A stretch of 64,000 nucleotides of DNA. It comes from Oscillospiraceae bacterium. GTDB lineage: Bacteria; Bacillota; Clostridia; Oscillospirales; Ruminococcaceae. Within the stretch, counting starts at the first letter, position 1, and every line of letters starts with the position of its first letter. Below the pieces are notes generated by a model. The model did not search any database. It was not told the origin of the DNA and worked only from the letters and a program-made list of their open reading frames with translations. The translations under genes were made by a program, and so were the position numbers. This document shows, in pieces, positions 7,773 through 59,253 of this stretch. The DNA lies in the NCBI GenBank assembly GCA_017518255.1, contig JAFWVK010000040.1:1-64000 (forward strand), written 5' to 3'.

Positions 7773-7828
7773 CAATGAGCAGATGAACGGATTCAGCAGA
7801 CCGGCTATCCGCCGGAATCAACTGAAAA

Positions 7829-8028
7829 ACCGGTCAGCACTCCACAACGCAGATATCTGCCTTGTGACAGTCACGCACTTATTCAGTACGCGCCCAGCAT
7901 CTCCCCTGCCGCAGAGAATCTGCTTCGGCGGTCTTGCCTTTTCTGCCGGAATCTGCTGCACGAAGCCGTACAGTTTCGGGTCGGCACCCTCATCCGGCAG
8001 GACTCATCAAGCCCGCGCCTCTGTCCGT
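7829..8028 (-). promoter_or_regulatory. Lysine riboswitch (L-box) aptamer
   Basis: Conserved L-box blocks occur in order on the minus strand: ACAGAGGCGCGGGCTTGATG, GCCGAAGCAGA, GGGGAGATGCTGGGC, GTACTGAATAAGTGCGTGAC and GTTGTGGAGTGCTGACCGG. The transcript starts about 20 bases upstream of the aptamer. Lysine binding should promote the downstream terminator and shut off asd, two unknown genes, dapA and dapB. Confidence 0.93.
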
Positions 8029-8034
8029 AGTTCT

Positions 8035-17413: not shown

Positions 17414-17632
17414 TTGACATTTCTTGCAAAACATGCTATAACCGCGCAGTGCGCGGCTCCGTGACAGGTTTCATGAGATTTCCGATATGATCTTTTTTAC
17501 TGTATCCATTGACATTTCCGGCAAAATATGCTATAACCGCGCAGTGCGCGGCTCCGTGACAGGTTTCATGAGATTTCCGGTATGATCTTTTTCACTGCAT
17601 CCATTGACATTTCTTGCAAAATATGCTATAAT
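17414..17632 (+). repeat. 95-base tandem repeat carrying three promoters
   Basis: Two full units and one partial unit repeat with a 95-base period (starts at 17414, 17509 and 17604). Each has TTGACA, 17 bases and TATAAC, TATAAC or TATAAT (17437, 17532, 17627). In the first two units the -10 is followed by CCGCGCAGTGCGCGG and GCTCCGTGACAGGTTTCATG. The third, with a perfect -10, feeds directly into the TPP riboswitch. The gap before it, 17321-17413, shows nothing I can support. Confidence 0.9.
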
Positions 17633-17639
17633 ATAAAGA

Positions 17640-17727
17640 GTGGGGAGCTTGTAGACAGGCTGAGAGGAAAGCAACTGAGCTTTCGACCCGTAACCTGATT
17701 TGGATAATGCCAACGTAGGGAAATACC
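17640..17727 (+). promoter_or_regulatory. TPP riboswitch (Thi-box) aptamer
   Basis: The conserved Thi-box parts are present: GGGGAGCTTG, GGCTGAGAGGAAAG, GACCCGTAACCTGATTTGGA and TAATGCCAACGTAGGGAA. It begins at the expected transcription start of the third promoter. TGCCAACG (17708-17715) in the aptamer can pair with CGTTGGCA (17748-17755) in the terminator, giving the mutually exclusive folds needed for TPP-dependent control of the thiamine operon. Confidence 0.96.
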
Positions 17728-17735
17728 GCTTTATC

Positions 17736-17768
17736 GGGGAAGCTGTGCGTTGGCAGCTTTCCTTTTTT
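17736..17768 (+). terminator. TPP riboswitch terminator
   Basis: GGAAGCTG pairs with CAGCTTTCC with one bulged base, and six T follow. It lies 33 bases before thiS and is the expression platform of the aptamer. Confidence 0.85.
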
Positions 17769-44647: not shown

Positions 44648-44676
44648 TTGACTTTCCCGGAAATCTGTGATATAAT
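44648..44676 (+). promoter_or_regulatory. Promoter of the TM1266-like gene
   Basis: TTGACT and TATAAT are spaced by 17 bases, 28 bases ahead of the start codon. It may also feed the downstream hydE-nif-hyp operon through the leader at 44953-45170. Confidence 0.8.
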
Positions 44677-44703: not shown

Positions 44704-44952
44704 ATGAATACCAGAACGGCGGTTATCGCAATCATCGTGAAAAACAGCAATTCTGCGGAGGAAATCAATGCGCTGCTCCATGTATACGCAGAATATATCA
44801 TCGGCAGAATGGGCATTCCGTTCCGCGAAAAAAAGCTCAATCTCATCAGCATTGCCATTGATGCACCACAGGATATCATCAATACACTTGCCGGAAAAAT
44901 CGGCAGAATTGACGGTGTAGAAGCTAAAACCGTATACGCCCCGCTTGACTGA
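44704..44952 (+). CDS. TM1266-type putative iron-hydrogenase system regulator
   Basis: An 82-residue ACT-like protein. The pattern TRTAVIAIIVKNSNSAEEIN followed by YAEYIIGRMGIPFREKKLNL and the end KIGRIDGVEAKTVYAP matches the small TM1266 family found in [FeFe]-hydrogenase maturation operons and presumed to be regulatory. GCGAGGTG lies upstream of the ATG; GTG at 44695 is an alternative start. It directly precedes the structured leader of hydE, so it may sense or control the pathway. The molecular function of the family is not established. Confidence 0.85.
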   Translation: MNTRTAVIAIIVKNSNSAEEINALLHVYAEYIIGRMGIPFREKKLNLISIAIDAPQDIINTLAGKIGRIDGVEAKTVYAPLD

Positions 44953-45035
44953 CACAGAGCATTCCTGTCCACTCCGAAAGCATTCCCTGACGGAGCTGCA
45001 CAGATACAGCGGAAAGTAAACAATTATTATAACCT

Positions 45036-45146
45036 GTCTCCTGACTTTTAAAAGCCGAAATCGCTTTGAGAGGAAAGAACGGCAGTCTCCGAACCGAACC
45101 GTAAGGGGGCAGTCTGTTTCAGGCGACAGACTGCTCCCCTTTTTTT
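45036..45146 (+). promoter_or_regulatory. Candidate riboswitch or attenuator ahead of hydE
   Basis: The terminator at 45105-45146 ends only 24 bases before the hydE start, leaving no room for a promoter in between. GCAGTCT occurs twice, at 45082-45088 and in the terminator 5' arm (45109-45115); both can pair with AGACTGC in its 3' arm (45129-45135), so two exclusive folds are possible. Upstream, GCCG (45054-45057) can pair with CGGC (45080-45083), while GAGA (45068-45071) can pair with TCTC (45086-45089), a pseudoknot order. I do not recognise a known riboswitch class. Aptamer identity and ligand are unknown. Confidence 0.55.
45105..45146 (+). terminator. Terminator in the hydE leader
   Basis: GGGG(G)CAGTCTGT pairs with ACAGACTGCTCCCC around TTCAGGCG, followed by seven T. 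Confidence 0.92.
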
Positions 45147-45170
45147 ACTCCGAACACAAGGCGGTGAAAC

Positions 45171-46244
45171 ATGATGCAAACCTCGAATAAAGAGCTGATC
45201 CTCCGGCTCTGCGAACAGCGCACACTGACAAAGCAGGAATGGGTTTCCCTGCTGACCGGCTTTACGGATGAAGACCGGGCATTCGCTGCCGAAACCGCAC
45301 GCGGAATCAGCCGGAACCACTTCGGGAACCGGGTTTTCATCCGCGGCATCATTGAATTTTCCAATTACTGCAAAAACGACTGCCTCTACTGCGGCATCCG
45401 GCGCTCAAATCCGAATGCACAGCGGTACCGTCTGACAGATGACGAAATACTGGAATGCTGCGCGGAAGGCTATGAGATCGGATACCGGACATTTGTCCTG
45501 CAAAGCGGTGAAGACCTAACCTACACTGCCGAACGGATTGCCGCACTTGTCCGACGCATCAAAGCTTCTTTTCCGGACTGTGCTGTGACGCTTTCCCTCG
45601 GAGAAAAAGAATACGAAGAATACGCAATGATGCGCGAAGCAGGCGCCGACCGCTATCTGCTCCGGCACGAGACTGCAAATGCGGCACATTATGCAAAACT
45701 GCATCCTGAAAAAATGTCCTATGCGCACAGAATGAAATGTCTCGAAGATCTGAAGTCGCTCGGTTTCCAGACCGGTGCCGGCATGATGATCGGCGCACCG
45801 TTTCAGACGGCAGAGCATCTGGCAGAGGATATGCTGTTTTTACGTTCATTCGAGCCGCACATGATCGGCATGGGACCTTTTCTGCCGCATAAGGATACCC
45901 CCTTTGCCGCTGAGCCAAAAGGATCTTATGAGATGACACTTTTTCTGCTGAGCCTCTGCCGCATCATGCTGCCGAATGTTCTGCTGCCGGCTACGACCGC
46001 ACTCGGTACAATCCGTCCGCAAGGCCGCGAACAGGGAATTCTGGCGGGTGCAAATGTCATTATGCCGAATCTCTCCCCGACGGCAGTCCGGAAAAAATAT
46101 ATGCTCTACGACAATAAAATCTGCACGGAAGACCGCTCGGCAGACTGCCGTTTCTGTCTGCAACAGCGCATGAAATCCATCGGTTATGAAATTTCCGTAA
46201 CAAGAGGAGATTATCAGGATGAAGAAAATCGCGATCTACGGTAA
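45171..46244 (+). CDS. hydE: [FeFe]-hydrogenase maturase HydE (radical SAM)
   Basis: A 357-residue radical SAM enzyme. In [FeFe]-hydrogenase maturation HydE acts on the HydG iron-cyanide-carbonyl product to help build the two-iron subcluster. The SAM-cluster motif CKNDCLYCGIRRSN lies near residue 62, followed by FVLQSGEDL, AVTLSLGEKEYEEY, ADRYLLRHETAN and GAGMMIGAPFQT, all HydE hallmarks. The secondary cluster Cys set KICTEDRSADCRFC is kept near 318-331. Start is ATG 45171 or 45174 after AAGGCGG. The gene overlaps the next one by 26 bases. No hydF or hydG is in the window. Confidence 0.93.
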   Translation: MMQTSNKELILRLCEQRTLTKQEWVSLLTGFTDEDRAFAAETARGISRNHFGNRVFIRGIIEFSNYCKNDCLYCGIRRSNPNAQRYRLTDDEILECCAEGYEIGYRTFVLQSGEDLTYTAERIAALVRRIKASFPDCAVTLSLGEKEYEEYAMMREAGADRYLLRHETANAAHYAKLHPEKMSYAHRMKCLEDLKSLGFQTGAGMMIGAPFQTAEHLAEDMLFLRSFEPHMIGMGPFLPHKDTPFAAEPKGSYEMTLFLLSLCRIMLPNVLLPATTALGTIRPQGREQGILAGANVIMPNLSPTAVRKKYMLYDNKICTEDRSADCRFCLQQRMKSIGYEISVTRGDYQDEENRDLR

Positions 46245-46980
46245 AGGCGGAATCGGGAAATCCACGATTTCCTGCAATGTATCCGCAGCGCTTGCAGCAA
46301 AAGGACTGCGCGTCCTGCAAATCGGCTGCGACCCGAAAGCGGATTCCACCGCCCTGCTGCACGGCGGCAGAAGAATTCCGACCGTTCTGGAAACCGAGCG
46401 GCAGGCCGGAAGCAGCTTGACACTGGAGGATATTGTTTATCAGGGGGAAAACGGTGTACTCTGCGCAGAAGCGGGCGGCCCGCTCCCAGGTGTGGGGTGC
46501 GCCGGCAGAGGTATTATCAATGCGCTTGAAACTCTGAAACGCCTCAAAGCATATGAAATCTATCAGCCGGATCTCGTCATCTATGATGTTCTCGGCGACG
46601 TCGTCTGCGGCGGGTTTTCCATGCCGATGCGCAGCGGATATGCCGACAAGGTGTTTATTGTGACTTCCGGCGAAAAAATGGCGAAATATGCTGCGGGAAA
46701 TATCTGCATGGCAGTACGGAATTTTCAGAGCAGAGGGTATGCTTCACTCGGCGGTCTGATTCTGAACCGCCGCGGCGCAGAACATGAGGATACAGCCGTG
46801 CAGCAGCTTGCAGACGATTTTGATACAGATATCATCGGCACACTGGATTACAGCGCAGATATCGCTGCTGCCGAAAAGCATGACTGCACCGTTGCAAAGC
46901 TGTTCCCGGAAAGCCCCGCGGTAAAGCAGTTCGATGCCATCTCAGAAGCGCTGCTGACCGCCTTCGGTAACAGATTATGA
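46219..46980 (+). CDS. NifH-like ATP-dependent iron protein 1
   Basis: A 253-residue homologue of nitrogenase Fe protein, an ATPase that passes electrons to a NifD/NifK-type partner. P-loop [10 protein letters not shown] (residues 7-16), CDPKADST switch region (37-44), and both [4Fe-4S] ligands are kept: Cys94 in GVGCAGRG and Cys130 in DVVCGGF. It reads slightly shorter than classic NifH (about 270-290). It starts inside the end of hydE (26-base overlap) and its stop overlaps the next start by four bases, so it is coupled on both sides. The electron acceptor is presumably the adjacent D1/K1 pair. Confidence 0.92.
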   Translation: MKKIAIYGKGGIGKSTISCNVSAALAAKGLRVLQIGCDPKADSTALLHGGRRIPTVLETERQAGSSLTLEDIVYQGENGVLCAEAGGPLPGVGCAGRGIINALETLKRLKAYEIYQPDLVIYDVLGDVVCGGFSMPMRSGYADKVFIVTSGEKMAKYAAGNICMAVRNFQSRGYASLGGLILNRRGAEHEDTAVQQLADDFDTDIIGTLDYSADIAAAEKHDCTVAKLFPESPAVKQFDAISEALLTAFGNRL

Positions 46981-48287
46981 ACGCCGCCTATGAAAAACCG
47001 CGCAGCATCCGGATTGCCGATGCAAATCCTTCCGTTTTTTTTGCATCGGGACTGGAATACAATCCCCCCGTGCGCGGTATGTGGAATATTGTGCATACCG
47101 GAATGCTGATTCCGGGCGCACATCAGATTTTTGCCTGTGCGCAGGGCTGTCTGCGCGGTGTAATTCTGACCGCTGCCGAAATGAATGCCCTTGACCGCAT
47201 GAGCTGGATTTCCGTTTCCGAGCAGGACATGTATGACGGAACCCTTGAAACAGATATCATAGACGGCTGCACGGATATTCTGCACAAACTTCCGTACAGA
47301 CCGCCGGTCGTACTGCTGTTTCTCAGCTGTATTCACCTGTTTGCAGGTGTCGATTTTGAGATAATCCTGACGGAACTGCGTTCCCGCTTTCCCGAAACCG
47401 AATTTACGGACTGCTACATGACACCGACCATGCGGCAGACCATGCCCCCTGCTTTCAAAATGGCTGCGCAGCTCTATGCACCGCTGAAGCCGCGCCCGAA
47501 AAATCCGCGTGCTGTCGCTATACTTGGAAACGACCGTGCAACAGACGAACGTTCGGAGCTTGTCCGGCTTATCCGGCAAAACGGCTTCAGGCTGCATGAT
47601 CTCACACTTTGCAGGACATACGAAGAATATCAGCAAATTGCCGAAAGTGCGCTCGGAATCAGTTATACACCCGCCGGAAAGTTTGCCGGTGAAGAAGCGG
47701 AACGGCGTCTGGGTATTCCGCATCTGCACATTCCCGCTTCTTTTGATTATTCCGAAATCACGGCAAACTACTGGCTGCTCTGCGATTCACTCGGCATCCC
47801 CTGCCCGGATTTTTCGGCGGAGATTGCCGCAGCGGACAATGCACTCGACCGCAGCTGTGCAATCATCGGCGATACGCCTGTTGCAATTGATTTCACGGCT
47901 GTCACACGTCCCTTTGAACTCGCAAAACTGCTGACAGAGCACGGTTTCAGCGTCCGGTATATCATTGCCGATACCGCCTCTGACGAACAGGCTGCATTTC
48001 AGTGGCTCGCAGAGCACTGCCCCGACCTCGAAATCTTCTCGGCAGTGAACGTCAATATGCTGCATTTCCGTCAGGAAACACACGAGCCCGTCCTCGCAGT
48101 CGGACAAAAAGCTGCCTACTATTTCGCAACAGATCACTTTGTCAATATTGTTGTCAACGGCGGACTGTACGGATTTGCCGGAATTCAGGCACTTACTGAA
48201 CTGATGACGGATGCCTTTCTTACTCCGAAAGACAGCGCAAGTGTTTTGCGGCACAAGGGGATCGGCTGCGCTTCCTGCCTTCTGTAA
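46977..48287 (+). CDS. NifD-like component 1 protein (D1)
   Basis: A 436-residue homologue of the nitrogenase alpha-chain superfamily. Candidate cluster Cys are C54 and C58 (FACAQGC), C98, and C118 (FLSCIHLF, at the position of the third P-cluster Cys). The C-terminus ends in GIGCASCLL, a CxxC not usual in NifD. It shares a block with D2 (CRTYEEYQQIAES here, [13 protein letters not shown] there), so the two are paralogues. The partner is K1, nine bases after. It lacks enough similarity to call it true NifD, NifE, BchN or CfbD; substrate unknown. Confidence 0.82.
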   Translation: MNAAYEKPRSIRIADANPSVFFASGLEYNPPVRGMWNIVHTGMLIPGAHQIFACAQGCLRGVILTAAEMNALDRMSWISVSEQDMYDGTLETDIIDGCTDILHKLPYRPPVVLLFLSCIHLFAGVDFEIILTELRSRFPETEFTDCYMTPTMRQTMPPAFKMAAQLYAPLKPRPKNPRAVAILGNDRATDERSELVRLIRQNGFRLHDLTLCRTYEEYQQIAESALGISYTPAGKFAGEEAERRLGIPHLHIPASFDYSEITANYWLLCDSLGIPCPDFSAEIAAADNALDRSCAIIGDTPVAIDFTAVTRPFELAKLLTEHGFSVRYIIADTASDEQAAFQWLAEHCPDLEIFSAVNVNMLHFRQETHEPVLAVGQKAAYYFATDHFVNIVVNGGLYGFAGIQALTELMTDAFLTPKDSASVLRHKGIGCASCLL

Positions 48288-48301
48288 AGGAGAGAATGTG
48301 C

Positions 48302-49444
48302 ATGAAAAATGTATCGAGAATCATCCCCTGCTATGCCGCGGATACCTCCGGTGTCTGCTCTGCGCTCTATGAACTTGGCGGCATGACGGTTGTCCACGAT
48401 GCTTCCGGCTGCAATTCCACCTATGCCACGCATGATGAACCACGCTGGTACGACCGGCAGTCCCTGATCTTTATTTCCGCGCTGACCGAAATGGACGCAA
48501 TCATGGGCAATGACGAAAAACTGATTGCGGATGTCGTTTCCGCAGCACACGACCGGAATCCGGCATTTATCGCTGTCTGCGGCTCTCCGATGCCGATGAT
48601 GACCGGTGTGGATTTTGATGCCGCAGCAGCAGAAATCGAGCGGCGCTCCGGCATCCGGACATTTGCCATGCACACAAACGGCACACATTCCTATATCAAC
48701 GGTGCATCGGAAGCGCTCTATACCATTGCAAAAGAATATGTCCGGGATATCCCGAAGGCTGCCGGAACAGGGGTGAATATCCTCGGCGCAACGCCGCTGG
48801 ATTTCGGACTCGGCGGAACCGCCGCAAGTCTGCGGCAATGGCTGCATGAAAACGGGTTCTCTGCCGTATCCTGCTTTGCAATGGGTGATTCGCTTGATTC
48901 GCTGAAAAAAGCAGCATCCGCAAAGGTCAGCCTCGTCATCTCACAGACCGGCATACCGGCAGCACAATACCTCTTTGAACAGTTCGGAATCCCTTATGTC
49001 TGCGGGATTCCGACCGGCACCGAATTTTCAAAGATTATAGCGGATGCACTGAAAGAAGCAGCTCAGACCGGTACTCCGCTTTATCCCTGTGCAATCGGCA
49101 ATTCCGCAGACCGCGGAGATATCACAGTGATCGGAGAAAGTATTTCCGCCTGTTCCGCCGCCGCAGAGCTGCATCTGCAAACCGGCAGGAAAACCCGTGT
49201 CATCTGTCCGCTGCCGTTTGAGCCTGCCTGTATGAACGGTGCTTTGGAATCCCCTGCCTCGGAAGAAGAAATCGAACGGGAACTGGCTGCGTATATTCCG
49301 GAAATCATCGCAGCCGATCCGCTTTACCGGATGATCTGTCCGCCGCAGGCAAAATTCCTTGAGCTGCCGCACTATGCTTTTTCCGGGCGCTGCTTTGACA
49401 AACGCATCCCGGATTATGTAAACCCGAATCTTTTCAGGCTTTGA
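48302..49444 (+). CDS. NifK-like component 1 protein (K1)
   Basis: A 380-residue beta-type subunit. The N-terminal region has Cys10, Cys19 (DTSGVCSALYELGG), Cys37 (DASGCNSTYATHDEPRW) and Cys93 (AVCGSP), so the three Cys corresponding to the nitrogenase beta P-cluster set are all present. The THDEPRW block is typical of a Clostridia group of nitrogenase-like proteins. ATG 48302 is preferred because AAAGGAG is nine bases upstream of it; the ATG at 48296 is too close. K1 should dimerise with D1. Confidence 0.85.
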   Translation: MKNVSRIIPCYAADTSGVCSALYELGGMTVVHDASGCNSTYATHDEPRWYDRQSLIFISALTEMDAIMGNDEKLIADVVSAAHDRNPAFIAVCGSPMPMMTGVDFDAAAAEIERRSGIRTFAMHTNGTHSYINGASEALYTIAKEYVRDIPKAAGTGVNILGATPLDFGLGGTAASLRQWLHENGFSAVSCFAMGDSLDSLKKAASAKVSLVISQTGIPAAQYLFEQFGIPYVCGIPTGTEFSKIIADALKEAAQTGTPLYPCAIGNSADRGDITVIGESISACSAAAELHLQTGRKTRVICPLPFEPACMNGALESPASEEEIERELAAYIPEIIAADPLYRMICPPQAKFLELPHYAFSGRCFDKRIPDYVNPNLFRL

Positions 49445-49471
49445 AACAATTCTAAAAGGGAGAACCCTCTT

Positions 49472-50236
49472 ATGATTAAAATAGCAATCTACGGCAAAGG
49501 CGGAATCGGAAAATCGACCTGCACTGCAAATCTTTCCGCCGCATTTGCTTCACTCGGAAAAAAAGTAATCCAGATCGGCTGCGACCCGAAGGCGGATTCA
49601 ACCGTGAATCTGCTGAACGGAAAGCCCCTCACGCCGGTCATGGATTATATGCGGATGCATGACGATGAACCGGAGGATATCTCTGTTATCTCCCGCACCG
49701 GATACAAAGGTGTTCTGTGTATGGAAACTGGCGGTCCGACACCGGGGCTGGGCTGCGCCGGACGCGGTATTATCACAACTTTTAATCTGCTGAAGCAACT
49801 TGAACTGTTTGAACAGTATCAGCCGGATGTTGTTCTGTACGATGTGCTTGGCGATGTTGTCTGCGGCGGATTCGCCGCACCGATCCGTGAGGGCTATGCT
49901 TCAAAAGTTCTGATTGTCACCTCAGGTGAAAAAATGGCGCTCTATGCAGCAAACAACATTCGGAATGCCGTTGAGAATTTTGCCGACCGCAGCTATGCAA
50001 AAGTACGCGGCATTATTCTGAACCGCCGGAATGTGGCGGATGAAGAAGCAAAAGTTCGTGCATTTGCAGATTCAGCGGGACTTGACATTGTTGCAGATAT
50101 CCCGCGCTCAGATGACATTATCCGCTGCGAGGATGCGGGGAAAACGGTCATTGAGGGGGCGCCGGACTGTGCTGCTGCACAGCGCTTCTTCGCCCTTGCG
50201 CAAAAACTGGCTGCGGAGGAACCGTCAGATGAATAA
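49472..50236 (+). CDS. NifH-like ATP-dependent iron protein 2
   Basis: A 254-residue second Fe-protein homologue. P-loop [10 protein letters not shown] (7-16), CDPKADST (37-44) and the cluster ligands Cys95 (GLGCAGRG) and Cys131 (DVVCGGF) are intact. It is closely related to the first NifH-like protein but differs in the C-terminal third ([16 protein letters not shown]). It opens the second H-D-K triplet, 27 bases after K1 with AAAGGGAG ahead. It overlaps D2 by eight bases. Confidence 0.92.
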
Positions 50237-51533
50237 AGCCTGCTATTTCACGGCTTCCGAGCTTGCAGAACGCGGCATCGGAAATCTTCCGGATGAACTC
50301 TGCTCTGCAAAACACATGATTTACAGTTCTCCTGCAACGCTGGACTACAACTCTCCCGGCGCCAAAGGCTTCGGGGTCAAACGGGCAGGACTGGTGATTC
50401 CCGAATCGGTCATGCTTCTGGTTGCACCGGGCTGCTGCGGACGGAACACTGCGCTGCTCAATTCTCTCGGATACAGTGAACGCTTCTTTTATCTCCTGCT
50501 GGATGATACCGATATCGTAACCGGCAGATACCTGAATAAAATTCCGAAAGCCTGCGCGGAAATCGCTGAAGAAATGAACCCGAAGCCCTCTGCAATTGTA
50601 ATCTGTGTCACCTGTGCGGATGCTTTGCTAGGAACTGATATGGATCGCGTTTGCAGAAGCTGTGAGGAAGCATCCGGAATTCCCTCCGTCCCTGCCTATA
50701 TGTATGCACTGACGCGGGAGAAGCGTCTGCCGCCGATGGCACTGGTCCGGAAATCAGTTTATTCCCTGCTGAAACCGCAGAAACGGAAATCAAACGAATG
50801 CGCGCTGCTGGGTTATTTTTCCGCACTGAACGATACCTGTGAACTCTATCCGCTGCTCCGCTCCGCCGGAATCCGGGAAATCCATGAAATCGGCAGGTGC
50901 AAGACTTTTGCCGAATATTCGGAAATCTCACGCTCCAATTTCAGCATTGTCCTCAATGCCGAGGCACGGTATGCCGCACAGGATATGCAGAAAGCACTCG
51001 GTATCCCGTTTATCGAGCTGACACGGCTGTACCGGATTGACAAAATCCGGACACAGTACCGGCTGCTCGGTCAGGCAATCGGCGCTGATCTCGATGATGC
51101 TCCTTATTATGCCGATGCAAAGAAAAAAACGGAGGAATTCCGGCTGAAATACGGCTCGCTCCGGTTCGCGGTCGGGGAATGCCTCAATGCAGACAGCTTT
51201 GAGCTTGCCCTCTCGCTTCTGGAATACGGTCACCGCGTAACGGAAATCTACGGGACAATCGGTGAACGGAATTTTGTTTTTCTGAAAAAAATAGCAGAGC
51301 ACTCACCCGAAACCAGAATTTACTCCAATCTTGATCCGAGTATGCTCTGCTATGTACGCGAACCTGAAACCGATGCAGTCATCGGAAACGATGCAATGTA
51401 TTATCATCCCGATCTGCCGGGAATCGGATTTCAGGAGGAGGCACAGCCATTCGGTTATCAGGGCGTATGTGCTTTGTTCTCGCAACTGGATGCAGCGCTC
51501 GAAGCGAATAAACGGCAGGAGGTGCAGGAATGA
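50229..51533 (+). CDS. NifD-like component 1 protein (D2)
   Basis: A 434-residue alpha-type subunit. The start is the ATG overlapping the preceding stop; the open frame continues 66 codons upstream inside the NifH-like gene. Candidate cluster Cys are C69 and C70 (APGCCGRN), then C126 and C129 ([13 protein letters not shown]), the region of the second and third alpha-chain ligands. It is a paralogue of D1, sharing the CKTFAEY block, but has no C-terminal CxxC. It is coupled to K2 by ATGA. Confidence 0.82.
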
Positions 51534-52567
51534 AAAAGCTGCTCAGGCATATGTCTCCGCTGGCACCGGACGATTCGGGCGCATGCGGTGTTCTGTACGA
51601 GATGGGCGGAATCACGGTCATCTGCGATGCCGGCGGCTGCGCGGGGAATGTCTGCGGGTTCGACGAACCGCGCTGGCATGAAAAAAAATCCGCACTGTTC
51701 AGTGCCGGACTTCGGGATATGGACGCGATTCTCGGACGGGATGATATGCTTATTGACAAGCTGGCAAAAATCTGCCGGCAGATTGATGCACCCTTCACTG
51801 CAATTGTCGGGACACCGGTTCCTGCAATCATTGCGACGGATTATCATGCCCTGCAAAAAGCTGCGGAACGCAAGACGGGGCTGCCCTGCATCACAATGGA
51901 AACAGACGGCACGAAGCTGTACGATTTCGGTGAATCCCTCGCCTACGAACGGCTGTTTCGCAGATTTGCCGCAGAAAAACTGCCGGTCATTCCCGGTTCG
52001 CTCGGTATAATCGGTGCAACACCGCTCAATACCGGATTCACTAATGCAGATCCGGTCATTCGCAGCCTCGGTACACAAGAATACGCAAAAATCACCTGTT
52101 TCGGTCTGGACAGCGGACTCGATGCCGTAAGCAGAGCATCGGAATATGCGGAAATAATGGTCATCTCCCCCTCCGGACTGAAAGCGGCACAATATCTGCA
52201 CGAAACCTTCGGCACACCTTTTTCAGTCGGTTATCCCTGTCTGCCGGAAGCTGTCCTGCGGAAAACAGAATCCCTTTCCGGAAAGCGTGTTCTGATTGTT
52301 CACCAGCAGTTTGCAGCGAATACGCTTCGGCAAACACTGAAACACTGTGATACGGACTGTGCAACATGGTTTCTGCTTGACCGCAGCTTTGCGGAACCGG
52401 GCGATTTCCGGATTACAGACGAGGAAATGCTGGCAGAAGCCGCGCCGCATTATGATGTCATCATTGCCGACAGGGTTTTGCACCGGATCGTCCCGCATTA
52501 TTCCGGGCTATGGATTGATTTTCCGCATGATGCCGTGTCCGGATCCGCAGAACGGGGTACGCTGTGA
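51530..52567 (+). CDS. NifK-like component 1 protein (K2)
   Basis: A 345-residue beta-type subunit, a paralogue of K1. DDSGACGVLYEMGG and AGGCAGNVCGFDEPRW keep Cys19 and Cys37 and add Cys32 and Cys42, but the position equivalent to K1 Cys93 is Val (AIVGTPVPA). The loss of one cluster ligand suggests a different cluster type or a scaffold role. It starts four bases inside D2 and its stop overlaps the hypF GTG, which links the Nif-like and Hyp genes at translation. Confidence 0.85.
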   Translation: MKKLLRHMSPLAPDDSGACGVLYEMGGITVICDAGGCAGNVCGFDEPRWHEKKSALFSAGLRDMDAILGRDDMLIDKLAKICRQIDAPFTAIVGTPVPAIIATDYHALQKAAERKTGLPCITMETDGTKLYDFGESLAYERLFRRFAAEKLPVIPGSLGIIGATPLNTGFTNADPVIRSLGTQEYAKITCFGLDSGLDAVSRASEYAEIMVISPSGLKAAQYLHETFGTPFSVGYPCLPEAVLRKTESLSGKRVLIVHQQFAANTLRQTLKHCDTDCATWFLLDRSFAEPGDFRITDEEMLAEAAPHYDVIIADRVLHRIVPHYSGLWIDFPHDAVSGSAERGTL

Positions 52568-54852
52568 AGGTCAGATATCATGTATACGGAATTGTGCAGG
52601 GGGTCGGATTCCGTCCGTTCACGGCTGTGACGGCAGAACAGCTCGGCATCACAGGCACCGTTGCAAACAAAGGCTCCTATGTTGAGATTATTGCGCAGGG
52701 AACACAGGAGCAGCTTGCACAATTTGCAGACACAATCCGGAACCGTCCGCCCGAACGCGCATCTGTGCTCAGTCTGGATACGCTCGAAGCGGATGACTGC
52801 GGCGAAACGGATTTCAGCGGGTTTTCCATTATCGAAAGCGAAAAGGAATACGGCAAAATCTTTGTTTCTCCGGATATCGCAACCTGCGAAACATGCAGAA
52901 AAGAGCTGTTTGATCCCGGAAACAGACGGTATCTGCATCCGTTCATCAACTGCACGCAGTGCGGTCCGCGCCTGACAATTCTGGACACTATGCCGTATGA
53001 CCGCGAGAGAACGTCCATGCGCAGATTCCCGATGTGCAAAACATGTAAGGAAGAATACCGGAATCCTGCCTCGCGCCGTTATGATGCACAGCCGGTCTGC
53101 TGCAATGACTGCGGTCCGGAACTGCAGATTCTCGGAACGGATATTCACGGCAGTGCGGCTGTTACCGCTGTCCGGAAAGCAATTTCGGAGGGGAAAATCG
53201 CTGCGGTAAAGGGAATCGGAGGCTTTCATCTGTGCTGCGATGCAAAAAACGCTCAGGCAGTCTCCCGTCTGCGGAAACTGAAGCACCGTCCGATGAAGCC
53301 GTTTGCCGTCATGATGAAAGATCTGCAAACTGCAAAACGCGAATGTAATGTAAAACCGGAGCAGGAAGCGTATCTGACCGGCTGGCAGAAGCCCATTCTG
53401 CTCCTTGAAAAACAAGCGGAAATGTCAGTGTGCAGCGAGACAGCGCCGGACATCGGTACGCTCGGCGTAATGCTCCCGTATACGCCGCTGCATATGCTGC
53501 TGTTTGATTATCCGGACGGCATCAGCATGACAGACTGTCTGGTTATGACCAGCGGAAACGCACACGGCGCGCCGATCTGCCGCAATGATGCAGATGCAGA
53601 AAAAGAAATTGCGGGATTCTGTGATCTGATTCTGACGCATAACCGCGACATTCTGATCCGTGCAGACGATTCCGTCTGCGACTGGCTCAACGGAAAACCC
53701 TATATGATCCGGCGGTCGCGCGGATTCGCACCGCTGCCGCTGATGCTGCGAAATGCCGGTGAAAAGCAGGTGCTTGCAATCGGCGGCGAGCTGAAAAACA
53801 GCTTCTGTATCGCACGGCACGGGATGCTCTACCCTTCGCCGTATATCGGAGATACCGCGGATCTCAGAACCGTTTCAGCGCTGCGGGAATCTGTCGCACG
53901 CCTCTGCGGTCTGCTGGAATCGGAGCCGGAAGTGATAGTATGCGACACACATCCGCTCTATCAGACGGTATCCGTTGCAGAGGAGCTCGCAAAAGAAAAG
54001 GGCGTCCCGCTCATCAAGGTGCAGCATCACTATGCGCATATTCTTTCCTGCATGGCGGAGAACAACTGTGCCGAACCTGTGATCGGCGTCAGCTTTGACG
54101 GAACCGGATACGGGCAGGACGGCACAATCTGGGGCGGAGAAATTCTGGTTTGCGAACCGCACGGCTTTCAGCGTGCCGGCAGCATCGAGCCCTTTCAGCA
54201 GACCGGAGGCGATCTTTCCGCGAAAGAGGGCTGGCGCATTGTTGCTGCCCTGCTTGACAGCCCGGAAATCTGCTCCGCACTGGGCATCTGCACAAAGCAG
54301 GAAGCCGCAGTCATCGGAAACATGGCACGCCTCGGCGTAAACAGTGTCCGCTCTACAAGCTGCGGCAGAATTTTTGATGCGGTTTCTGCCGTCACCGGAT
54401 TCCGCCGCGCATCGACTTACGAAGGCGAAGCATCGGTTGCGCTTATGACAGCTGCGGAGGCTTTCCGGAACCAGTTCGGAGACTGTGTTTCATCGCTCCC
54501 CTCCTCCGTGACGGAAACGGAAGATTATGTCACGCTGGACACCGCAGCACTCATCCGTACAATCGCGGACAAAATGCTGCATGACCCGAATCAGCGCAGC
54601 CGTCTGGCATATGAATTCCATCTGGCTCTGGCAAATATGACCGTAACTGCCTGTCAAACAGTCAGCCGCAGAACCGGTATCCGGATCTGTGCCCTGAGCG
54701 GAGGTGTGTTTCAGAACCGCCTGCTGACAGAACTGACCGCGCAAAAACTGCGTCAGACAGGATTCCGGGTTTTGCTGCACAGTCTGATTCCCCCGAATGA
54801 CGGCGGAATCTGCGCCGGACAGGCTTATTACGGCGTCATGAATGATAAATAA
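52564..54852 (+). CDS. hypF: Carbamoyltransferase HypF
   Basis: The 762-residue enzyme transfers carbamoyl from carbamoyl phosphate to the HypE C-terminal Cys, the first step to the cyanide ligands of iron. Domains in order: acylphosphatase (YGIVQGVGFRPF, residue 8), zinc-binding repeats (CETCRKE, CTQCGPR, CKTCKEE, CNDCGPE, about 105-185), YrdC-like (VKGIGGFHLCCDA near 218), and Kae1-like with VQHHYAHILSCM near 483 and FDGTGYGQDGTIWGGE near 509. It starts at GTG overlapping K2 by four bases, so translation is coupled to the nitrogenase-like genes. Confidence 0.97.
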   Translation: MKVRYHVYGIVQGVGFRPFTAVTAEQLGITGTVANKGSYVEIIAQGTQEQLAQFADTIRNRPPERASVLSLDTLEADDCGETDFSGFSIIESEKEYGKIFVSPDIATCETCRKELFDPGNRRYLHPFINCTQCGPRLTILDTMPYDRERTSMRRFPMCKTCKEEYRNPASRRYDAQPVCCNDCGPELQILGTDIHGSAAVTAVRKAISEGKIAAVKGIGGFHLCCDAKNAQAVSRLRKLKHRPMKPFAVMMKDLQTAKRECNVKPEQEAYLTGWQKPILLLEKQAEMSVCSETAPDIGTLGVMLPYTPLHMLLFDYPDGISMTDCLVMTSGNAHGAPICRNDADAEKEIAGFCDLILTHNRDILIRADDSVCDWLNGKPYMIRRSRGFAPLPLMLRNAGEKQVLAIGGELKNSFCIARHGMLYPSPYIGDTADLRTVSALRESVARLCGLLESEPEVIVCDTHPLYQTVSVAEELAKEKGVPLIKVQHHYAHILSCMAENNCAEPVIGVSFDGTGYGQDGTIWGGEILVCEPHGFQRAGSIEPFQQTGGDLSAKEGWRIVAALLDSPEICSALGICTKQEAAVIGNMARLGVNSVRSTSCGRIFDAVSAVTGFRRASTYEGEASVALMTAAEAFRNQFGDCVSSLPSSVTETEDYVTLDTAALIRTIADKMLHDPNQRSRLAYEFHLALANMTVTACQTVSRRTGIRICALSGGVFQNRLLTELTAQKLRQTGFRVLLHSLIPPNDGGICAGQAYYGVMNDK

Positions 54853-54873
54853 ACACATCAGGAGGTAATTATT

Positions 54874-55083
54874 ATGTGTGTCGGATTATCGGCAAGAGTT
54901 GTCAATGTTACGAACGGAACTGCACTGATTGATGCAGACGGAGCACAGAGATCGGTCAGCGCAGGGATTCTCGAAGATCTGGAACCGGGCGATTATGTTA
55001 TGGTTCACGCCGGTGTCGCAATAGCTAAAATCAGCGAAAATGATGAGCAGGAAGCTGACGAAGTCATGGAGGAGCTGCTGTGA
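54874..55083 (+). CDS. hypC: Hydrogenase maturation chaperone HypC
   Basis: A 69-residue OB-fold protein. It begins MCVGLSARVV; Cys2, exposed after removal of Met, is the iron-carrying residue of HypC, although the usual MCLAIPGKV has drifted. EPGDYVMVHAGVAIAKI is the standard strand pattern. HypC carries Fe(CN)2CO from HypD to its client. CAGGAGGTAA precedes the ATG. The end overlaps hypD by four bases. Confidence 0.93.
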   Translation: MCVGLSARVVNVTNGTALIDADGAQRSVSAGILEDLEPGDYVMVHAGVAIAKISENDEQEADEVMEELL

Positions 55084-56123
55084 ATAACAGTATGAGAGCC
55101 GCACGCGACATCATAACCTCATACAGCGGAAAACCGCTCAGGATTATGGAAGTCTGCGGTACACACACACACGAAATCTTCCGGCTCGGACTGCGAAAAC
55201 TGCTGCCGGAACAGATTGATCTGATTTCCGGACCGGGATGTCCGGTCTGTGTCACATCAGTCGGCTATATTGATGAAGCGTGCCGGCTGGCGCTGCAAAA
55301 TGGCTGCGTCATCTGCACATTCGGCGATCTGATCCGTGTACCGGGAACCGAAATGAGTCTTGCGGGGGCACGTGCAGAGGGCGCAGAAGTCAAGCCGGTT
55401 TATTCGCCGCTGGATGCCGTCGAACTGGCTGCAAAAAATCCCGAAAAGCAGGTTGTTTTCCTTGCGGTCGGATTTGAAACGACAACGCCCTCGGCATGTC
55501 TTGCCGTTAAGCAGGCAAAGGAAGCAGGGCTGCAAAATTTTTCCCTGCTGACTGCAAACAAAACCATGCCGAACGCCTATCAGGCTTTGGTCGGCTCGGC
55601 GGATGCGTTCCTCTATCCGGGGCATGTCAATGCGATTACCGGGAACGCGGTGTGCAGAGAACTCTGCGAAAAACAGAGCGTTTCCGGCGTTGTCGCAGGC
55701 TTTACCGCAAGCGAACTGCTGACGGCGCTTGCCGTAACAATCCGGCTACTGGAAAAAGGAGAACCGTTTTTCCGCAACTGCTATCCGCGTGTAGTAAAAG
55801 ATGAGGGAAATCCGGCTGCACTGCAAATCATGCAGGATGTCATGGAACCCTGCGACAGTGAATGGCGCGGGCTGGGGCTGATTCCGCAGTCCGGCATGAA
55901 ACTGCGGGAGGAATATGCAGATTATGACGCCCGCATGAAATATCATCTGCCTGTCATCACCGGAAAACCGAATCCGGCGTGCCGCTGCGGAGAGGTCTTG
56001 CAGGGAAAATGCAAGCCCTCGGACTGCAAGGTTTTCGGAAAGGTCTGCACACCGCTGCATCCGGTCGGCGCATGCATGGTCTCCGATGAGGGCGCGTGCT
56101 CGGCATACTATCAGTATACATAA
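55080..56123 (+). CDS. hypD: Hydrogenase maturation factor HypD
   Basis: The 347-residue iron-sulfur protein forms with HypC the scaffold on which iron receives two cyanides and one CO. The iron-ligand motif MEVCGTHTHEIFR lies near residue 22, GPGCPVCVTSVGYIDEA near 51, GFETTTPSA near 132, and the C-terminal cluster Cys set CRCGEVLQGKCKPSDC near 303 with CTPLHPVGACMVS. It starts at GTG overlapping the hypC stop. Length is usual for the family. Confidence 0.97.
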   Translation: MNNSMRAARDIITSYSGKPLRIMEVCGTHTHEIFRLGLRKLLPEQIDLISGPGCPVCVTSVGYIDEACRLALQNGCVICTFGDLIRVPGTEMSLAGARAEGAEVKPVYSPLDAVELAAKNPEKQVVFLAVGFETTTPSACLAVKQAKEAGLQNFSLLTANKTMPNAYQALVGSADAFLYPGHVNAITGNAVCRELCEKQSVSGVVAGFTASELLTALAVTIRLLEKGEPFFRNCYPRVVKDEGNPAALQIMQDVMEPCDSEWRGLGLIPQSGMKLREEYADYDARMKYHLPVITGKPNPACRCGEVLQGKCKPSDCKVFGKVCTPLHPVGACMVSDEGACSAYYQYT

Positions 56124-56133
56124 CGGAGGAAAT

Positions 56134-56307
56134 ATGGAACCGCACGATTATATTGTAACGGATATTCAGGGCGATTACGCTTATTTGCAGCTGACCGGCT
56201 CCGACGGCGCAGAGCCGTTTCAGGTCGCACTTGCGCTGCTGCCGCCCAGCACTGACATCGGAACAAAACTCACCGGCTTTATGGGCTGCTTTGAAATCAC
56301 GGAATAA
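56134..56307 (+). CDS. Small unknown protein between hypD and hypE
   Basis: A 57-residue acidic protein (MEPHDYIVTDIQGDYAYLQL start, VALALLPPSTDIGTKL in the middle) that looks like a small beta barrel. CGGAGGAAAT precedes the ATG, and it lies 10 bases after hypD and 11 before hypE, so it is a real operon gene. I do not recognise it. It is not HypA: there is no MHE start and no zinc Cys motif. It might be a small accessory or HypC-like chaperone; that is only position-based. Confidence 0.7.
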   Translation: MEPHDYIVTDIQGDYAYLQLTGSDGAEPFQVALALLPPSTDIGTKLTGFMGCFEITE

Positions 56308-56318
56308 GGAGCATCATC

Positions 56319-57326
56319 ATGAATGAAAAAACAGTCACGCTCGCGCACGGTGCGGGCGGCACACAGACAAACGAATTGATCGGGAGTGTATTCAAGGCAC
56401 ACTTCGCGAACCCGCTGTTTACCGGCGATGACGCTGCGGTACTGCCGCAGCCGGGCGGAAGAATTGCAATGTCAACCGACGGTTTTATCGTTTCGCCATG
56501 GAAATTTAACGGCGGCAATATCGGCAAGCTCGCGGTCTGCGGAACGGTCAACGACCTCTCCTGCATGGGCGCAAAGCCGCTGTATCTGACAAGCGCCTTT
56601 GTAATAGAAGAAGGATTTCCGCTGGATGCACTCGAAGAAATCGCGGCTGCAATGGAGAAAACCGCTGCCGAGGTCGGCGTGCGCATCGTTGCGGGCGATA
56701 CCAAAGTTGCCGGAAAGGGACAGTGCGACGGCATATTCATCAACACGACCGGTGTCGGAGAAATTCTGCCGCAGGCAAATACCTCCGGTACATTCGCAAA
56801 ACCCGGTGACGCGGTCATTGCCACGGGAGATATCGGCAGACACGGCTGCACCATTCTCATTGCGCGAAACGATTTCGGAATCGAATCCGATGTAGACAGC
56901 GACTGTGCGCCGCTCTGGGGAACTGTGGAGAGCCTGTTCCGTGTCACAGACGACATTCATGTCATCCGCGATGCGACACGCGGCGGCGTCGGGACGGTGC
57001 TGTATGAGATTGCAGAGCAAAGTCAGGTCGGCATCCGCCTGAACGCAGAAAGCGTTCCGGTCGATCCCCGTGTCAAAGGTGTCTGCGGGATGCTCGGACT
57101 CGACCCGCTCTATCTTGCCTGCGAGGGCAGGCTGGTCATTTTCGCGCCGCAGGAGCACGCAGAGGCGCTTGTCGCGGAGCTGAAAAAGGGCAGATATTCC
57201 GCAAATGCCGCTGTGATCGGAACCGTCACCGCCGAAAACTCCGGCAAGGTCATCCTCGAAACGGAAATCGGCACGCAGACTTACCTCCCGCAGCCCAAGG
57301 GCGAACTGCTCCCGCGGATCTGCTGA
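56319..57326 (+). CDS. hypE: Carbamoyl dehydratase HypE
   Basis: The 335-residue enzyme dehydrates the HypF-delivered carbamoyl on its C-terminal Cys to a thiocyanate, the cyanide donor for iron. HGAGGTQTNELI opens the protein, TGDDAAVLP near residue 37 and GDIGRHGCTILIA near 168 are the PurM-like ATP sites, and the end is LLPRIC, the essential terminal Cys. It is the last gene of the operon. AAGGAGCATC precedes the ATG. I see no good hairpin terminator after it. Confidence 0.97.
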   Translation: MNEKTVTLAHGAGGTQTNELIGSVFKAHFANPLFTGDDAAVLPQPGGRIAMSTDGFIVSPWKFNGGNIGKLAVCGTVNDLSCMGAKPLYLTSAFVIEEGFPLDALEEIAAAMEKTAAEVGVRIVAGDTKVAGKGQCDGIFINTTGVGEILPQANTSGTFAKPGDAVIATGDIGRHGCTILIARNDFGIESDVDSDCAPLWGTVESLFRVTDDIHVIRDATRGGVGTVLYEIAEQSQVGIRLNAESVPVDPRVKGVCGMLGLDPLYLACEGRLVIFAPQEHAEALVAELKKGRYSANAAVIGTVTAENSGKVILETEIGTQTYLPQPKGELLPRIC

Positions 57327-57480: not shown

Positions 57481-59253
57481 ATGAAAACTATAAAAAAGGT
57501 TTTTTCTTTATTATTTGCGTTGATAATAAGTTTGATTGGTTTATCAATTACCAATGCAAATGCAGCAACTACCAATGCAAATGCAGCAACATATTATTAT
57601 GAAGAAGTAAGTTATCCACCATATAAAATTCAGTGTAGATATTACTACTTGGAATCTGGTAAAGAGATTTGTTGTGATGCAACATGCACTATGCAAACTT
57701 CCAAATTGGAAATTGACGATGATAGAGCAATAACATTTCCTGATTTTCCTGCAAAAGTTAAAAGTGAAAGTGGACGAATTTACCCAGTAAAGCATCTTTG
57801 CATATATGTCGATACCAAAAACATTAGAAAATTTTTGATTCCAAGCAATATAACACATTTAAGTATTTATGGATCAGGAGATGGACCAAGAGCTTTTAAC
57901 GATTATAGTAATTATACTGAATGTATCATTCAAAACAGTGCCACGGATTTTGATACGCTATATTATTATAATATTCGCGAAAATGAAGAAGGAAAAAGAG
58001 TGTGTAATTGTAATTGGATGGCATTTGATAAGGAAAGTGCGGGCATTTATCTTTTTAATTATAAACAAACTGATGAGTTAAACGATGTGCCATATAAAAA
58101 TCTTAGAATCATTTGCTCGCCAGGTTCCTACGCAGAAGAATATGCTGTAAAACATGGTATTCCGGTTAGATATACGAAATATGATTATGAGTATAGTATG
58201 TACGAACGTAATGGGGGAAGAGAAGTAAAAATAACAAAATATAAAGGAAACGACGAAGATACGGCTATTCCTATGCGATTAGGTTCTGACGATCGTGATA
58301 TTTATGGTTTACCTGTAACAAGTATCGGTGAAGGAGCTTTTTCAAATTGTAAATTATTGAAAACTGTTATAATTCCAGATACTATTGTTTTTATTGAAAA
58401 CAATGCTTTTAAAAATTGTTCTGAACTATTAGAAGTCAAATTTGGTCGTGATGTTCATGTTAATAGTGTGACAAGTATCGGTGAAGGAGCTTTTGCAAAC
58501 TGCGGAAATTTAGAAAAAATAAAAATTCCATCTAGTGTGACGAGGATTGGAAGATATGCTTTTGCAGGTTGCGATCAATTAACAGAAATCATTATTCCAC
58601 ACAATACAACAAGTATTGGTGAGGGAGCATTTCATGGTTGTTCCGAATTAACAGATATCACTATTTGGAGCGACAAAATCAAAATTAATAAAGACGCTTT
58701 CTCTGACTGTACTAACCTAAAAAATATAACCCTTAAAAGTATTAATTCAAACCAATTGGAATCTGATCTATATTATGCATGCGCCAATACGCCATGGCGA
58801 TTAGACCATCCTTTACTTATAGTTAATAATGTTTTAAAAAAATGTGATAACCGAATAACCAAAGTAACAATTCCTAATGATGTTACTAGCATTGATAGCA
58901 AAGCGTTTGTAGGTTCTAATCAAAAAAATGTCATTATACCAAACAGTGTTACATCTATTGATTATGGAGCGTTTACAGATAAGAAATCTATTACTATCTA
59001 TGGTGAATCTGAGTCATATGCGGAAAAGTTTGCCAAAACATATGGTATAGAATTCGTTTCAATCAATGATATTATAATGGGTGATGTGAATCTGGATGAA
59101 GAAGTAACCGCGGCAGATATTGCTCCCCTTCAACAATATCTCCTGACGGAAACAGATTTGTCCTCCAAAGCAGCTTTCCAAGCCGATCTGAATTACGACG
59201 GAAAGCTCAATGCGATTGACCTGACATTACTGAAACAACTGATTGGAAATTAA
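57481..59253 (+). CDS. Secreted BspA-type leucine-rich-repeat protein with dockerin
   Basis: A 590-residue protein with a signal peptide (VFSLLFALIISLIGLSI) followed by two copies of TNANAAT from a 21-base duplication. From about residue 280 there are LRR_5 repeats of the BspA type (VTSIGEGAFANCGNLEKIKI and relatives). A C-terminal dockerin starts near 534 with GDVNLDEEVTAADIAPLQQY and ADLNYDGKLNAIDLTLLKQL. The LRR part is strongly AT-rich, unlike all neighbours, while the dockerin part is near the local composition, so the gene looks like a fusion with foreign DNA. BspA repeats usually bind host proteins or other cells. A T15 run precedes the gene at 57386-57400. Confidence 0.88.
   Translation: MKTIKKVFSLLFALIISLIGLSITNANAATTNANAATYYYEEVSYPPYKIQCRYYYLESGKEICCDATCTMQTSKLEIDDDRAITFPDFPAKVKSESGRIYPVKHLCIYVDTKNIRKFLIPSNITHLSIYGSGDGPRAFNDYSNYTECIIQNSATDFDTLYYYNIRENEEGKRVCNCNWMAFDKESAGIYLFNYKQTDELNDVPYKNLRIICSPGSYAEEYAVKHGIPVRYTKYDYEYSMYERNGGREVKITKYKGNDEDTAIPMRLGSDDRDIYGLPVTSIGEGAFSNCKLLKTVIIPDTIVFIENNAFKNCSELLEVKFGRDVHVNSVTSIGEGAFANCGNLEKIKIPSSVTRIGRYAFAGCDQLTEIIIPHNTTSIGEGAFHGCSELTDITIWSDKIKINKDAFSDCTNLKNITLKSINSNQLESDLYYACANTPWRLDHPLLIVNNVLKKCDNRITKVTIPNDVTSIDSKAFVGSNQKNVIIPNSVTSIDYGAFTDKKSITIYGESESYAEKFAKTYGIEFVSINDIIMGDVNLDEEVTAADIAPLQQYLLTETDLSSKAAFQADLNYDGKLNAIDLTLLKQLIGN

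Follow-up and report, generated by a model that had tools for sequence, protein, structure and literature searches.

The window analyzed here, a 64,000-nucleotide stretch of DNA from an Oscillospiraceae bacterium, contains an operon (44704–57326) in which hydE, coding for a radical S-adenosylmethionine (SAM) maturase, is followed by two sets of nitrogenase-like genes, designated H1-D1-K1 and H2-D2-K2, and by hypF, hypC, hypD and hypE. Considered as a whole, this operon probably specifies a route for maturation of the H-cluster of [FeFe]-hydrogenase that is independent of HydG, and at the level of the pathway we regard replacement of HydG by the gene set as highly likely. The H-cluster is favored as the target cofactor, given that HydE, HydF and the hydrogenase HydA are all present and HydG is not. 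According to excerpts of PMC9431212 and PMC11736057, HydG makes carbon monoxide (CO) and cyanide (CN) from tyrosine, either unbound or in the form of an Fe(CO)2CN unit.

All of the genes are on the + strand, in the order TM1266, hydE, H1, D1, K1, H2, D2, K2, hypF, hypC, hypD, a 57-residue gene and hypE, and the features of the region are as follows.

44648–44676, + strand: promoter-like site TTGACT-17-TATAAT, predicted by a consensus scan (11/12)
44704–44952, + strand: TM1266-family [FeFe]-hydrogenase system gene (TIGR03959, 105.5 bits; cut-off 60.8)
45105–45148, + strand: hairpin resembling a terminator, followed by a T run, between TM1266 and hydE (14-pair stem at 45105–45138, then the tail)
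45171–46244, + strand: hydE, radical SAM maturase (TIGR03956, 557 bits; cut-off 254.6)
46219–46980, + strand: H1, NifH-like ATPase (PF00142, Fer4_NifH)
46977–48287, + strand: D1, nitrogenase component-1-like (PF00148, Oxidored_nitro)
48296–49444, + strand: K1, nitrogenase component-1-like (PF00148; profile match to NifE and NifD)
49472–50236, + strand: H2, NifH-like ATPase (PF00142)
50229–51533, + strand: D2, nitrogenase component-1-like (PF00148; hhalign to NifE, E 9.4e-16)
51530–52567, + strand: K2, nitrogenase component-1-like (PF00148; Cys37)
52564–54852, + strand: hypF, carbamoyltransferase (TIGR00143, 740 bits; cut-off 466)
54874–55083, + strand: hypC (TIGR00074, 60.8 bits; cut-off 48)
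55080–56123, + strand: hypD (TIGR00075, 413.6 bits; cut-off 193)
56134–56307, + strand: 57-residue gene without a Pfam match
56319–57326, + strand: hypE (TIGR02124, 416 bits; cut-off 252)

The original prediction, made from the sequence without database searches, had listed the genes from hydE to hypE in this order and on one strand, with overlaps of 4–26 bases or gaps below 30, and all of this is borne out, the successive distances from hydE to hypE being −26, −4, 8, 27, −8, −4, −4, 21, −4, 10 and 11 bases (negative values are overlaps). What it left unnamed within the interval is the TM1266-type gene at 44704–44952, one gene upstream of hydE, with which the operon begins. The start of D2 is most likely at 50229, since the alternative start at 50031 falls deep within H2. 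Residues 10–338 of HydE match a solved HydE structure. A riboswitch before hydE was considered and rejected, as Rfam at gathering scores gives none there and the stretch is occupied by the TM1266 gene. The 57-residue gene between hypD and hypE is recognized at five of the 80 related loci described below.

The source genome (2.99 Mb, 98% complete) encodes a group A6 [FeFe]-hydrogenase HydA (879.6 bits; cut-off 765), a second, divergent [FeFe]-hydrogenase homologue that is below the group A and B cut-offs, and HydF (510 bits; cut-off 325.55). HydG was not found in this genome; the best match reaches 180.5 bits against a cut-off of 312.15, and the gene concerned is that for ThiH (511 bits; cut-off 380). 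A missed or divergent HydG was considered for the source genome and rejected, the sole HydG-like genes being those for HydE and ThiH. HypC, HypD, HypE and HypF are all above their family cut-offs, Cys2 of HypC is invariant across 54 rows, and the C-terminal PRIC of HypE is kept in 42 of 43 rows. HypA and HypB are not encoded in the operon, the rest of the genome not having been searched for them, and there is no match to PF00374, the [NiFe]-hydrogenase large subunit, in the source genome. A cryptic [NiFe]-hydrogenase was also rejected, PF00374 being present in six of the 72 genomes searched and the source genome not being among these. With neither protein found in the genome, HypCDEF are thus left without a [NiFe] large subunit to serve, and the H-cluster without HydG.

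The relationship between D1 and HydG was followed in a sample of 297 genomes from the order; completeness is 90% or higher and contamination 5% or lower in every genome but one. D1 is present at 425 bits or more in 13 of these, with weaker matches at 249, 230, 78 and 43 bits, while HydG and HydF are over their cut-offs in 124 and 142 genomes, respectively. Three features can be read from these figures. First, all 13 D1-positive genomes have HydF and a PF02906 (HydA-like) match, and none has HydG. Second, the 142 genomes with HydF divide into 123 with HydG, 13 with D1 and six with neither; HydG is therefore lacking in 13/13 of those with D1 as against 6/129 of those without it (Fisher, 3e-14, for rows that are not independent, the 13 D1-positive genomes spanning five families). 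Third, genome G148, which has the D1 match at 249 bits, does have HydG. The HydG genome G129 has only a fragment of HydF. PF02906 is found in 286 of the 297 genomes as against 142 for HydF, such that many HydA-like proteins occur without the known maturation GTPase in the genome.

HydA and HydF were searched for in the order sample alone, whereas the HydG, HypD and [NiFe] large subunit results also cover the genomes of 50 of the 80 named loci. These 50 include Ruminococcus albus 8, AR67 and KH2T6, R. bicirculans 80/3, Lentisphaeria and one member of the Spirochaetaceae, and HydG is over its cut-off in none of them. In the resulting 63 D1-positive genome rows (at most 62 genomes, as G289 and G344 are one genome with identical K1), HydG never accompanies a D1 of 425 bits or more. 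Nor is HydG over its cut-off in any of the 29 genomes in the genus of R. albus 8, not all of which were scored for D1, and a missed or divergent HydG in the relatives was rejected on this count. R. albus 8, AR67 and KH2T6 have the operon and lack HydG. In R. bicirculans, whose genome has no HydG over cut-off, the operon is on the complete chromosome I (L062, L171), and it is also present on the 3,685,408-base chromosome of G347, one of the 29 genomes above. The R. albus strain from which HydABC was isolated is presumably R. albus 7. In the excerpts of PMC6288185 the R. albus HydABC is isolated and characterized, and the hydrogen formed in continuous culture equals acetate.

The operon is conserved in Oscillospiraceae, Lentisphaeria and one spirochaete. 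At the best 80 of 226 D1 loci in named genomes, where many contigs end early, we found H1 at 79, K1 at 76, H2 and TM1266 at 68 each, hydE at 59, hypF at 57, HydF at 34 and HydG at none. Of the 54 loci where the downstream sequence extends for 9.5 kb or more, the full set is present at 34, one to three hyp genes are missing within the stretch at 17, and H2-D2-K2-hyp is missing at three. Because the arrangement recurs at most of the 80 loci, it is not due to chance. In R. bicirculans the order is TM1266-hydF-hydE-H1-D1-K1-H2-D2-K2-hypFCDE with one extra open reading frame (ORF) before hypF, and G347 has the same order with one small ORF after hydF in place of the extra ORF. In the spirochaete the order is TM1266-hydF-(aspA-like)-hydE-H1-..., the aspA-like gene being just under its subfamily cut-off (509.3 versus 510); genes of this kind are also found after HydF in L113 and before it in L155, and excerpts of PMC11736057 describe AspA adjoining HydF as a mark of hyd operons. 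In 16 of 20 HydG loci sampled from the 124 HydG genomes, by contrast, the order is hydE-hydG-hydF, and H1-D1-K1, which lies beside hydE and hydF in the relatives, thus occupies the usual place of hydG. The original prediction had asked for co-occurrence and synteny of these families across genomes and named an order unique to this genome as a finding that would speak against it; the gene set recurs, with HydG over its cut-off in none of the 63 D1-positive rows, and the order is widespread among the 80 loci.

Some neighboring arrangements differ. R. albus AR67 has three small ORFs between hydF and hydE (L031, 6298–8156), and L170 has one similar small ORF there without a Pfam match. In L163 (G088) and L174 (G232), hydE and hydF are near neighbors; hydG does not lie between them, and neither genome has a close D1. 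A divergent HydE-like gene, 27–30% identical to the HydE of the window, is beside HydF in L161/L176 (G205) and L160/L177 (G202), the one in L161 being below the HydE cut-off; both genomes have HydF and lack HydG and a close D1, and perhaps represent a third type of maturation.

The H, D and K proteins have recognizable nitrogenase features. H1 and H2 match Fer4_NifH, and D1, K1, D2 and K2 match Oxidored_nitro, all above Pfam gathering scores, but none of the six reaches any of the NCBIfam cut-offs shown. For H1 and H2, respectively, scores are 295 and 301 bits against the CfbC cut-off of 402, and 189 and 210 bits against the BchL cut-off of 345. Cys94 and Cys130 of H1 are invariant across 97 rows, and Cys37 of K2, which aligns with Cys44 of NifN, is invariant across 64. 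D1 has additional conserved cysteines, including a C-terminal C-x2-C (98/100 and 91/100 rows). The component-1 fold by which NifDK and NifEN are recognized is present; in a fold search with D1 many component-1 chains are about equally close, the top rows lying within 1 Z unit, and D2 is nearest to NifE among the Nif proteins compared. Two of the three D-side cysteines of the interface cluster and the K-side cysteine have apparent counterparts, one D1 position having been placed by eye, and no counterpart of the first D-side cysteine was seen in profile alignments. The cysteine that binds the iron-molybdenum cofactor (FeMo-co) or L-cluster, at the positions in NifD and NifE that we presume to be correct, has no counterpart in profile alignments, being replaced by Thr/Tyr in D1, for which the alignment with NifD is weak, and by Leu/Asn in D2.

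More distant relatives were also sought. Only close relatives of D2 are among the 120 matches listed by a search that scored just those candidates sharing most words, and plasmid searches with D2 and K1 gave mainly NifE genes together with one Treponema plasmid. Remote H-D-K sets, each without linked HydE and beside an importer resembling the FecCD-type system described below, are located on the Treponema saccharophilum plasmid pTS1 (L169, 12000–18296) and at L157, in the genome (G148) that has HydG.

In [NiFe]-hydrogenase maturation, carbamoyl phosphate is the source from which HypF and HypE make cyanide, and Fe(CN)2CO is carried on HypCD. We suggest, as the most parsimonious reading, that in the operon HypF and HypE would do the same, and that HypC-HypD would place the cyanide on iron together with CO, as they do in the [NiFe] system. 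This product could be reductively converted to an Fe(CO)2(CN)-type unit, first by H2-D2-K2 and next by H1-D1-K1, the NifH-like ATPase of each set feeding a D-K pair that would bear the interface iron-sulfur cluster, and the additional CO might be made from CO2 by the nitrogenase-like sets. Two of these units would then be joined by HydE, and completion of the cluster and its insertion would fall to HydF, together with the usual machinery for dithiomethylamine. The chemistry in this scheme is inferred, and its parts carry different weight: Hyp is rather likely to be the cyanide source where it is present with H2-D2-K2, while any particular task for H1-D1-K1 or H2-D2-K2 is doubtful. As a tentative proposal, H1-D1-K1 itself would take over from HydG in making the Fe-CO-CN unit, fed in one lineage by H2-D2-K2 and HypFCDE and in another by an importer that takes up a finished iron precursor from the surroundings. 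According to excerpts of PMC11736057, neither HydG nor HydE is needed when the hydrogenase is matured with a synthetic Fe2(SH)2(CN)2(CO)4 complex. The original prediction envisaged either an iron cofactor carrying CN/CO ligands and assembled with the help of Nif-like proteins, which fits and for which the genomes now suggest the H-cluster, or a new nitrogenase-like reductase using such iron, which has gained no support.

A precursor importer is suggested by the existence of two arrangements. Variant A is that of the window, with H1-D1-K1, H2-D2-K2 and Hyp. Variant B, represented by 14 loci (L080–L083, L114–L116 and L118–L124, of which L080 and L118 are from one genome), has H1-D1-K1 beside a FecCD-type importer, with hydE in ten of the 14 stretches and hydF in six. 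The importer's binding protein is present in 13/14 and its permease and ATPase in 12/14 (L083 and L119 are cut by contig ends), and H2-D2-K2 and Hyp are found in none of the 14. The importer ATPase carries a TM1266 domain (62.5 bits in L114, gathering score 27), matched in nine of the 14. HypD is present in 52 of the 63 D1-positive genome rows, the 11 rows without it all being variant B, and the [NiFe] large subunit is absent from 47 of these 52; in the variant B genomes G170 and G224, hypD is 8–10 kb from a [NiFe] large subunit, on a different contig from D1. Since the variant B loci have neither, Hyp and H2-D2-K2 are outside the shared core.

In a K1/K2 tree (55 rows from chosen loci, quick method, midpoint root), K1 of both variants forms one group (Shimodaira-Hasegawa-like approximate likelihood ratio test [SH-aLRT] 99) and K2 another (100); K1 of 18 of the 20 variant A rows forms one group (98) among the variant B ones, and the remote L157 row is on the K2 side with a long branch. 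In a HydE tree (70 of 91 rows, quick method; the 'B' labels on L007, L037, L044, L045, L051 and L067 reflect short contigs), D1-linked HydE makes up a group of 46 rows (98) that is separate from the HydG-linked HydE. It is quite possible, if short of probable, that H1-D1-K1 alone is the core and makes or processes the Fe-CO-CN unit, with the precursor being built by Hyp and H2-D2-K2 in variant A and imported through the FecCD-type system in variant B. The variant B loci, their importer with its TM1266 domain, the rows without HypD and the single K1 group all speak for this; against it, the solved structures nearest the variant B binding protein are 4ovk (a periplasmic binding protein) and HI_1472, neither of which suggests that a compound of cyanide or carbonyl type is bound.

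Several observations weigh against a HydG-independent H-cluster pathway as set out above. First, HydF of the source genome is on a different contig from the operon, and in G122, which is D1-positive, the HydA match is no more than weak (PF02906, E 1.8e-12). Second, six genomes have HydF and neither HydG nor a close D1 (G042, G088, G102, G202, G205 and G232). Third, 11 of the 63 D1-positive genome rows (two of them from one genome) have no HypD at all, and Hyp therefore cannot supply CN in those rows. Fourth, the unit associated with HypCD is Fe(CN)2CO, whose ligand ratio does not suit Fe(CO)2CN, so that a remodelling step must be assumed. Fifth, L113 has only one NifH-like gene, and HydE of L113, L117 and L081 is outside the D1-linked group; that of L113 and L117 is of the HydG-linked type, which fits, though it does not prove, HydE meeting one common substrate in both pathways. 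Finally, the remote H-D-K sets are beside ABC transporters on the Treponema plasmid and in HydG-positive G148 (L157, with a D1-like match of 249 bits), and the D-K family is accordingly wider than an H-cluster role.

Two further explanations reassign the nitrogenase-like proteins. Nitrogenases, and NifH alone, reduce CO2 to CO, and the two sets might do no more than this, or donate low-potential electrons, leaving the iron chemistry to HypCD and HydE. The absence of the FeMo-co and L-cluster cysteine from D1 and D2 agrees with such a role, but the existence of two separate sets does not, and the additional conserved cysteines of D1 with their C-terminal C-x2-C suit the holding of a metal unit; we consider this explanation unlikely. 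Less likely again, and in our view improbable, is that the operon builds a different CN/CO-iron cofactor for another enzyme or a new reductase, with HydE shared and HydG lost separately. No D-K protein falls in a characterized NCBIfam family (the original prediction had named close relatives already characterized, with a cofactor independent of Hyp and HydE, as evidence against itself), and the remote sets in a HydG-positive genome and on a plasmid stretch without HydE are also in its favor. However, the set is linked to HydF at 34/80 and to TM1266 at 68/80 loci, and to our knowledge both of these serve only the H-cluster; HydG is found with a D1 of 425 bits or more in none of the 63 rows; and among the loci mapped, no conserved gene emerged as a candidate for the target enzyme. 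Last, that HydE and HydF mature the enzyme poorly on cellular CO and CN, with ThiH or another radical SAM protein substituting for HydG and the rest of the operon unrelated, draws on the activation of about 1% by HydE and HydF alone in vitro (excerpts of PMC9431212) and is very improbable, as it leaves the gene linkage unexplained, 29 of the 50 named D1 genomes have no ThiH-level match (E 1e-50 or better), and R. albus, from which the enzyme was isolated and characterized, forms hydrogen equal to acetate (excerpts of PMC6288185).

If a HydG-independent pathway of this kind is correct, a group of hydrogen producers of the rumen and gut, with R. albus as a member, would make its hydrogenase by a different route, and uncharacterized nitrogenase-like proteins would acquire a testable function. 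It might also explain other genomes with HydE and HydF and no HydG; excerpts of PMC9431212 report such a gap in five acetogenic Clostridium species without a recognized HydG, for which an atypical HydG or other ligand sources are discussed. Genes like nifH and nifD in gut data need not then signify nitrogen fixation, and there would be a new laboratory way to make the H-cluster. Should H1-D1-K1 itself replace HydG, the three great biological organometallic iron pathways would be merged, and a nitrogenase relative would be handling CO and CN to build the metal cofactor of another enzyme. We found no paper joining these parts in the open-license PubMed Central literature, which does not prove that none exists.

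Elsewhere in the window, a BspA-type leucine-rich-repeat protein with a dockerin domain is encoded directly after the operon (57481–59253). There are two riboswitches, one for lysine (7827–8031, − strand) and one for thiamine pyrophosphate (17631–17738, + strand), the latter upstream of the region containing thiH.

Comparison with known systems places the operon beside several of them. It resembles NifEN with NifH in the fold of D1, in the apparent counterparts of the second and third NifE ligand cysteines and of the NifN cysteine, and in the closeness of D2 to NifE; it departs from them in its identity of about 14–25%, in lacking the L-cluster cysteine and the other Nif genes, and in scoring below every Nif cut-off. 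CfbCD and dark-operative protochlorophyllide oxidoreductase (DPOR; BchLNB) similarly combine a NifH-like ATPase with a component-1-like protein that has no FeMo-co cysteine, but neither H1 nor H2 reaches the cut-off for CfbC or BchL and the operon has no tetrapyrrole genes. With [NiFe] maturation it shares the four proteins HypCDEF, including the HypE C-terminal cysteine and HypC Cys2, although no [NiFe] large subunit was found in this genome and the hyp genes are linked to HydE and nitrogenase-like genes. With HydEFG maturation it shares HydE, TM1266, HydF (elsewhere in the genome, or linked in relatives) and the predicted product, whereas HydG was not found and H1-D1-K1 is in the place of hydG. 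By membership tests the system falls outside HydEFG (HydG not found), [NiFe] maturation (no large subunit) and Nif and CfbCD/DPOR (below the cut-offs), yet it is likely to work like HydEFG. We place it with H-cluster maturation, as a new form centered on a non-homologous replacement.

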